A stretch of 35,851 bases of DNA from Bacillota bacterium (GTDB taxonomy: Bacteria > Bacillota > DTU030), in contig JAAYTH010000031.1 in NCBI GenBank assembly GCA_012523785.1, forward strand, positions 1 through 35,851. The letters run 5' to 3'. The notes under the pieces are model-generated. The model was not told the origin of the DNA and ran no database searches. It saw only the letters and a list, made by a program, of their open reading frames with translations. Positions 10 through 1,923 of this stretch are shown here, piece after piece (position 1 is the first letter of the stretch; each line of letters starts with the position of its first letter). Both the position numbers and the translations under genes were made by a program.

Positions 10-294
10 ATGTTAATTAAAACTAATGGCCTGGGGGCAACCCTTGCCTTTATAAAGGCCAAGGGCAGCAAAAATGAGGCCTACCAACTTCTTTACGATC
101 AGACGGCAGAGTGGTTTATGAGGCAAGGGAAGGATTTAATTGAATTGGTAAGGGATGATGATTTAGTAGAAAAAATTGTTGGATTAAATTCTACTGCCTA
201 TCGGGTTGCGACCAGGGAGGTATTAGCCTTGTTTTTCTGGTTGCGCCGTTTTGCCGAGGGGCTAATAGAAGGAGAGGCGGAGGCCAATGACTGA
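10..294 (+). CDS. cmr5: CRISPR-associated protein Cmr5 (type III-B small subunit)
   Basis: 94 aa with Cmr5-like pattern IKTNGLGATLAFIKAK...YQLLYDQTAEWF...YRVATREVLALFFWLRRFAEGL; overlaps the start of a Cmr6 gene. Confidence 0.85.
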   Translation: MLIKTNGLGATLAFIKAKGSKNEAYQLLYDQTAEWFMRQGKDLIELVRDDDLVEKIVGLNSTAYRVATREVLALFFWLRRFAEGLIEGEAEAND

Positions 295-1378
295 GCGGGG
301 GCAAATTAAAAGGTATTTTTCCGATAGGGGTTTTGGGTTTATTGCATGGAAAAAAGAAGAGGATGTTTTCTTCCATATAAGTAATTATGACGAAGAAGGT
401 ACTCCCGTGGAAGGAGATTGGGTGGAGTTTTCCCTAGGGGTTGGCCGAAGGGGAAGACCTGCGGCTGAGGGTGTGAAGAAAACAGCCCCCCCTTTTATTC
501 CCCTGGATGAGGCCCATTACAAAATACCCGCTGATACTAGAAATGTAATTACCCTAAAACAGGTTGACAATTTTTATCTTAAATTAAATCGCCTGGCCTA
601 TTTTCACAAAAGGGATAGTAAAAGTGGCTTTGAACTTTTGCTGACCGATAAGGGTGATGTTTCATATGAACTGGAGCCTAACCTCAGTGGTGTAAATTTT
701 CCCGCCATTATCGCCCGCCAAGAAAAACTGGTGGAAGATCTGGCGGAGGAAACTGTTAAAATAACATTTATCCCGGATGGACGCCTTATCATTGGTTTGG
801 GGCAACCTTCGGTCTATGAAACATCCCTTACCTTACACCACCTGTATGGGATTCCCTACATACCCGCAAGTGCCTTAAAGGGTATAACCAGAAGTTGGCT
901 GCTTTCGGAGGTTTTTGGCCAAAATGAGGAGGAAGCACTGCGCGATGAAGCTTTCCGCCAAATTTTCGGAGGGCCAAAAACCGACAATTTACTGGCCCAA
1001 AGGGGCGCTGTGCGCTTTTTAGATGCCTTTCCCCTGGAGGAGCCAAAGCTGGTCTTTGATATTATAAACCCCCATTATGCCAGCTATTACTCGGACCCCG
1101 AGGGGAAAAAACCGCCCGGGGATTATGATACCCCCATACCCATTGTATTTTTAGCGGTGGAAGCAAAGGCGGGATTTGGCATTGTTCTGACTGTACGGGA
1201 AAACGCCATAATCCAGCAGGGCAGGTTGGCAGGGAAAAGGATCTTAGATATAGTTGCCCAGCATTTAAGGGAAGCCCTAGTTGATCAGGGTATAGGGGCC
1301 AAAACTTCGGTGGGATATGGGTATGCATTGGCCGGGCAGAATTTATCCCCGGCGGATGCCAAGTTTCATACGGATTAG
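287..1378 (+). CDS. cmr6: Cmr6-family RAMP protein with N-terminal cold-shock domain
   Basis: N-term GQIKRYFSDRGFGFIAWKKEEDVFFHIS (RNP1/RNP2-like cold-shock motifs), then Cmr6-like GLGQPSVYETSLTLHHLYGIPYIPASALKGITRSWL, DIINPHYASYY and GIGAKTSVGYGYA. Continuous ORF. Confidence 0.87.
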   Translation: MTERGQIKRYFSDRGFGFIAWKKEEDVFFHISNYDEEGTPVEGDWVEFSLGVGRRGRPAAEGVKKTAPPFIPLDEAHYKIPADTRNVITLKQVDNFYLKLNRLAYFHKRDSKSGFELLLTDKGDVSYELEPNLSGVNFPAIIARQEKLVEDLAEETVKITFIPDGRLIIGLGQPSVYETSLTLHHLYGIPYIPASALKGITRSWLLSEVFGQNEEEALRDEAFRQIFGGPKTDNLLAQRGAVRFLDAFPLEEPKLVFDIINPHYASYYSDPEGKKPPGDYDTPIPIVFLAVEAKAGFGIVLTVRENAIIQQGRLAGKRILDIVAQHLREALVDQGIGAKTSVGYGYALAGQNLSPADAKFHTD

Positions 1379-1467
1379 GGGGCAAATCAGGGAAGGCTAT
1401 AAGGGAAAACCATTAGTGTGCATCGCTACTCCGGATGGGGTGGGGAAATACGGGTCGGGAGGGATTG

Positions 1468-1923
1468 ATGCAGGGTGGGTCGCATATGGAAGAAGTGAGG
1501 AGCATTGATATTGCCCGGGCAGCGTTGAGAATGGCCCTTACAAGCACTAGGGAAGAGGAACATGAGCTGCAAAGGGAATTTGGGCGGGAAAAAATGAAGA
1601 CGGTGGCAGTCGATTATGGGGGCGAATTTATTGCTTCCTTCCAAAGGGTGGTGGAACGGGCTATAGTTGCCGCCAAGCGGGAAGGTGTTATCGAGGCAAC
1701 CCATCTGGAGGAAGGGGCAGTGGCCGGGGCGGCCAGGGAATCACTGTCCCAGGTGCTGCCCAAGGCCATGGGTTTGAATGTGGGGGGTAAAATCGGTATT
1801 GCCCGTAAGGGGGGCCACATAGGTGTGGCGGTGTTTTTTGCTGTGGGTCTGCTCCATTTAGATGAAATTGCGGTGGGGCTTTCCCACCGGGCGGTGCCGA
1901 ATGTAAATAATGAAAAGGCCTAG
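1468..1923 (+). CDS. HutP family protein
   Basis: REEEHELQREF...VDYGGEFIASFQRVVERAIVAAKREGVI...GLNVGGKIGIARKGGHIGVAVFFAVGLLHLDEIAVGLSHRAV resembles HutP-family proteins of clostridia. GGGAGGG lies upstream of ATG 1468; ATG 1486 is an alternative. Confidence 0.75.
   Translation: MQGGSHMEEVRSIDIARAALRMALTSTREEEHELQREFGREKMKTVAVDYGGEFIASFQRVVERAIVAAKREGVIEATHLEEGAVAGAARESLSQVLPKAMGLNVGGKIGIARKGGHIGVAVFFAVGLLHLDEIAVGLSHRAVPNVNNEKA

Follow-up and report, generated by a model that had tools for sequence, protein, structure and literature searches.

The window analysed here, a 35,851-nucleotide stretch of a Bacillota genome, raises the question of why a Cmr6 protein of a type III-B CRISPR system should begin with a cold-shock domain (CSD), and whether such a fusion is genuine. 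The gene occupies positions 287-1378 of the plus strand, runs from an ATG start to a TAG stop, and encodes 363 amino acids (ORF list and sequence), exactly the coordinates that a sequence-only reading had assigned to a CSD-Cmr6 fusion. Just 5′ of the ATG lies a purine-rich, Shine-Dalgarno-like stretch, GGAGAGGCGGAGG (271-283, plus strand), recognized by reading the sequence. The start of cmr6 is overlapped by 8 bp by cmr5 (10-294, plus strand), which has lost its 5′ end to the contig edge; its profile matches are PF09701 (6e-23, starting at profile position 35) and TIGR01881 (1.7e-10). The intact cmr5 of the congeneric locus L002 encodes 138 aa.

The ORF at 287-1378 is confirmed as a single protein composed of a cold-shock domain and then Cmr6. 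The CSD comprises residues 1-68 (287-490, plus strand; PF00313, structural model, and superposition) and contains an RNP1-like motif, KRYFSDRGFGFI, and an RNP2-like motif, DVFFHIS, with FFH where FVH is usual. PF00313 matches residues 4-64 at 2.5e-10, with 40.5 bits against the Pfam gathering cutoff of 27, and the match rises to 1.5e-11 when residues 1-78 are the sole query. This match bears out the CSD signature that had been read in residues ~1-65 and excludes the possibility, raised with it, that residues 1-70 would give no CSD hit. A linker of residues 69-77 (491-517, plus strand; pLDDT below 50 at residues 70-76 in the model) leads to Cmr6 proper, residues 78-346 (518-1324, plus strand; TIGR01898, PF03787, and alignments). 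The type III-B Cmr6 profile TIGR01898 matches residues 164-346 with an E-value of 7e-42 and 143.8 bits against an equivalog cutoff of 51.1, and the RAMP superfamily profile PF03787 matches residues 167-346 at 3e-15. Sequence conserved among Cmr6 proteins starts near residue 78 (YKIPADT...DNFYLKLN), and the RAMP core extends from about residue 164 to its end at GIGAKTSVGYGY (residue 346). Cmr6 had been said to follow the CSD without interruption, which holds in that both lie in the same chain, but a short low-confidence linker intervenes.

The AlphaFold model, built from a 20-row alignment, is of moderate confidence overall (mean pLDDT 74, pTM 0.61). It predicts a five-strand OB barrel at residues 2-66, with block-mean pLDDT of 77-92, a poorly resolved linker at ~70-76, and a RAMP fold C-terminal to it. 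In Foldseek searches of the PDB, the whole model retrieves Cmr6 chains and the N-terminal part retrieves cold-shock proteins. The CSD model superposes on solved cold-shock proteins with a TM of about 0.85 at 1.5-1.7 Å. It shares with CspB and CspA a five-strand barrel and the RNP1 and RNP2 core (TM about 0.85, 1.6 Å); those proteins are free-standing, whereas the window CSD is fused and has W8, F30, and F38 replaced.

The genome assembly is fragmented into 227 contigs, so a sequencing error that fuses two genes, or a start codon beyond the CSD, has to be considered. Conservation of the fusion in other genomes excludes the first. The congeneric L002 (contig G004:C1) encodes the same architecture at 75% identity to the window protein, CSD-Cmr6 proteins above the Pfam cutoff also occur in three further genera (G347, G344, and G540), and the identical fusion is present in one solved chain, PDB 9arw_H. 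Between the window gene and L002, omega is about 0.21 in the CSD and in the Cmr6 part alike (NG86), and the CSD is under purifying selection equal to that on the Cmr6 part. A downstream translation start is unlikely from the sequence, which has no ATG or methionine beyond Met1, has sparse GTG and TTG codons, and has a CSD under selection. An assembly artefact is ruled out by the other genomes, 9arw_H, and the selection on the CSD; taken together, artefactual explanations are highly improbable.

The fusion is also present in deposited structures. By phmmer, residues 1-346 of the window protein align with residues 1-372 of 9arw_H at an E-value of 1e-67, an end-to-end homology. This chain is titled "CSD domain-containing protein Cmr6", and the identical sequence occurs in 9z7q, 9z7v, and 9z7x. 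None of these entries was among the matches listed by Foldseek, whose library covers PDB releases up to 2026-04-08. The 9arw entry also holds Cas10/Cmr2 and its sister entries hold Cmr1, so a Cmr complex containing a CSD-Cmr6 has been solved; the Cas10/Cmr2 of this group matches L002 Cmr2 over its length (4e-105). 9arw_H resembles the window protein in its two-domain order and in its loss of W8, F30, and F38 with retention of F15, F17, F27, and H29, but its sequence is divergent. In 9z7q, 9z7v, and 9z7x, Cmr1 is named Cmr1-MntA, in contrast to the unfused Cmr1 of 287-300 aa in the window genome and L002. The RAMP fold and conserved blocks of the window protein recur in Cmr6 from Pyrococcus furiosus (4w8v) and from the solved Cmr complexes 3x1l, 9l7c, and 9x25, but the sequence match to these chains is confined to its Cmr6 part.

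No paper on CSD-Cmr6 or Cmr1-MntA was found among openly licensed PMC papers. The architecture is already in the PDB, though undescribed as far as was found in that literature, and the window protein adds one more example to a known, little-described arrangement. The idea that such proteins are uncharacterised holds only in part: no publication came to light, but structures exist (9arw, 9z7q, 9z7v, 9z7x). A partial parallel is CnuB of type I CoCoNuT, a defense system predicted to target RNA, which has N-terminal CSD-like domains (PMC11090510). Both proteins have a CSD-like OB fold at the N-terminus of a defense-system protein, but CoCoNuT is an unrelated GTPase system and not CRISPR (PMC11090510).

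Cmr6 proteins above cutoff are encoded in 53 of 399 genomes of the phylum, four of which have a canonical CSD (G000, the window genome, and G004, G344, and G347) and four a decayed one (G184, G362, G381, and G278). G540 (canonical) and G454 (CSD-like) came from class searches and lie outside this phylum count. In a quick 87-sequence Cmr6 tree, with N-terminal domains excluded, the five canonical CSD proteins fall inside one 17-member subclade (SH-aLRT 90, not starred), and 68 of the 87 sequences have no CSD, CSD-like, or KMPLP-type domain. Sixteen subclade members carry an N-terminal extension, whether a canonical CSD, a decayed CSD, or another small domain. Of all 17, five are canonical, three are decayed-CSD loci (one of which, G070, retains a mere remnant in frame), two are of the G399/G400 type, six are of the KMPLP type, and one, L020 (G155), is bare. 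The tree is compatible with a single origin of the CSD but does not show one.

The N-terminal variants differ in their resemblance to the CSD. In hhalign, as raw pairwise profile comparisons from few sequences, the decayed G184/G362/G278 type matches the CSD with a probability of 87% and the G399/G400 type with 36%. The former is likely kin to the CSD, and kinship of the latter is weakly suggested. The RNP2 histidine is missing in the decayed or CSD-like domains of G184, G362, G278, and G454. Homology of the KMPLP domain to the CSD is not supported (4% in the same comparisons). This domain of ~70 aa stands at the start of Cmr6 in L030, L034, L053, L097, L100, and L101, has the consensus GKL.V.K...G.V....K.MPLP..YE..D.S.N..ECEVEREKGQI..I.V.G.ELPRR, and had no Pfam match in the members scanned (L034 and L053). 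Carriage of CSD-Cmr6 by phages or plasmids was considered and rejected: no phage match to window residues 1-178 was found, viral contigs gave no confirmed relative, and no plasmid record reached 80% coverage. The Cmr6 proteins of Runella and Aureispira plasmids match only from window residue 79.

The nucleic-acid-binding face of the CSD is half retained. The reference was the B. subtilis CspB sequence, whose ligand positions we take to be W8, F15, F17, F27, H29, F30, and F38. All five canonical Cmr6-CSDs and 9arw_H retain K7, F/Y15, F17, F27, and H29 (CspB numbering), and each of them has other residues at the stacking-surface positions W8, F30, and F38. The retained face corresponds to F16, F18, F28, and H30 of the window protein. 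The window CSD consequently lacks the full CspB stacking surface, a trait of well-studied cold-shock proteins that is not required for membership of the fold family. The same genome also encodes a free cold-shock protein, which has the complete ligand set, with Y for F at 15 and 30. Replacement of W8, F30, and F38 makes an affinity like that of ordinary cold-shock proteins doubtful, and the half-retained face fits a weak or guided RNA contact better than such binding. Subclade relatives with a decayed CSD, other domains, or none indicate that RNA binding by the N-terminal part is inessential to Cmr6. A role for the CSD as a nucleic-acid clamp, as the sequence-only reading proposed, is possible on the strength of the retained RNP1/RNP2 aromatics and histidine, and is weakened by the three replacements common to all canonical copies and by the decay or absence of the domain in relatives. 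That reading is upheld in that the fusion is real and conserved, but the arrangement was already in the PDB and the clamp is still putative.

Cmr1 and Cmr6 lie at the crRNA 3′ end, the site of the exposed seed (PMC8376896). In the favored explanation, which we hold with slightly better than even confidence, the CSD is an accessory cap at this pole of the Cmr complex with a modest RNA contact. The window protein is the Cmr6 of a type III-B effector and would occupy, with Cmr1, its usual place at the crRNA 3′-end pole; the CSD would be an add-on seated there on its short linker. Through the retained RNP1/RNP2 face, it may make a weak or position-limited contact with exiting RNA, either the crRNA 3′ tail or the target RNA flank beside the seed end, and it perhaps also touches a neighboring subunit. 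The position and RNA contact of the CSD are what we infer from the domain matches, the full-length match to 9arw_H, conservation, selection, the RNP core, and the complete cmr1-6 of L002; the absence of cmr4 from the assembly and the inferred contig order count against this explanation.

Alternatively, the CSD might be mainly structural, packing on Cmr6, Cmr1, or the last Cmr4 or Cmr5, or docking a partner with no need for RNA. This is possible but falls short of probable. Domains lacking the RNP2 histidine, and CSD-like or unrelated small domains (G399/G400 and KMPLP), occupy the same place, and the loss of W8, F30, and F38 in all canonical copies points the same way; however, a pure scaffold would not need the H29 and three RNP aromatics that those copies retain. 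It is unlikely that the CSD contributes little to the complex and is merely a passenger, either captured recently or dispensable. The majority of Cmr6 proteins, which have no such domain, and the bare L020 within the subclade would fit a passenger, but selection on the CSD as strong as that on Cmr6 (dN/dS about 0.2) and a constant domain order across four genera and 9arw_H would not.

A broader and more speculative proposal is rather doubtful. One Cmr6 subclade may possess a socket at its N-terminus into which small OB-like domains have been placed time and again, the CSD being the RNA-binding-competent state. Such domains would tune the hold on the crRNA 3′ end or target RNA, and so let each lineage control how long the crRNA is or how the target enters its type III-B complexes. 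Little is yet understood about what sets and holds the 3′ end of type III crRNAs, or about the entry of target RNA there. A domain of the 3′-end subunit that can be dispensed with and exchanged would offer a clean handle on crRNA length, target binding, and signaling.

The gene belongs to a cmr operon: cmr5 lies beside cmr6 in the window, cmr1-3 are on contig C65, and the congeneric L002 has a complete cmr1-6 operon; cmr4 was not found in the window assembly. Contig C14 (L132, G000:C14:1-8197) carries a type I-C operon, cas3-cas5c-cas8c-cas7-cas4-cas1c, which ends in a small gene interpreted as cas2 and has an array behind it. An array also opens contig C65 (L081, G000:C65:1-4349), which continues into cmr1-cmr2-cmr3. 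The repeat GTCGCGCCCCCCGCGGGCGCGTGGATTGAAAC is identical in both arrays, which suggests that the I-C and III-B systems share one array. The inferred contig order is C14, C65, window, and in this genome the array of the type I-C cas operon apparently precedes the cmr operon. From that adjacent array, which the Cmr module apparently shares, the Cmr complex would probably draw its crRNAs. Past the last full repeat of C65 (L081:287-395), a 44-nt unit occurs twice (98%), with a hairpin-like GGGCGACC...GGTCGCCC and a degenerate repeat end.

On the 3′ side of cmr6, the ORF list and domain matches give HutP and then a division and cell-wall cluster. The HutP-family antiterminator (window 1435-1923) stands between the cmr operon and this cluster. 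In L002, a DUF2103 gene on the minus strand (L002:9577-9864) lies between cmr6 and hutP and is apparently missing there in the window.

G540, G344, and G347 have a Cas_APE2256 CARF gene, which is read as lying between cmr3 and cmr4; none was found in G000 or G004. Given the short Cas10, it was considered whether the CSD reflects a SAM-AMP/CorA link, and this was set aside; G540, G344, and G347 carry the Cas_APE2256 CARF instead. In this genus, as in G347, the Cas10 palm motif reads YAGGEDF, not YAGGDDF (L081:1495-3207, L002:4054-5766, and L042:13560-15272), and G344 has GGDD. A HepT/MntA toxin-antitoxin pair lies near the G347 CSD-Cmr6 operon (L042:6351-6987), which, together with the Cmr1-MntA of 9z7q, hints at a recurring link between Cmr and MntA.
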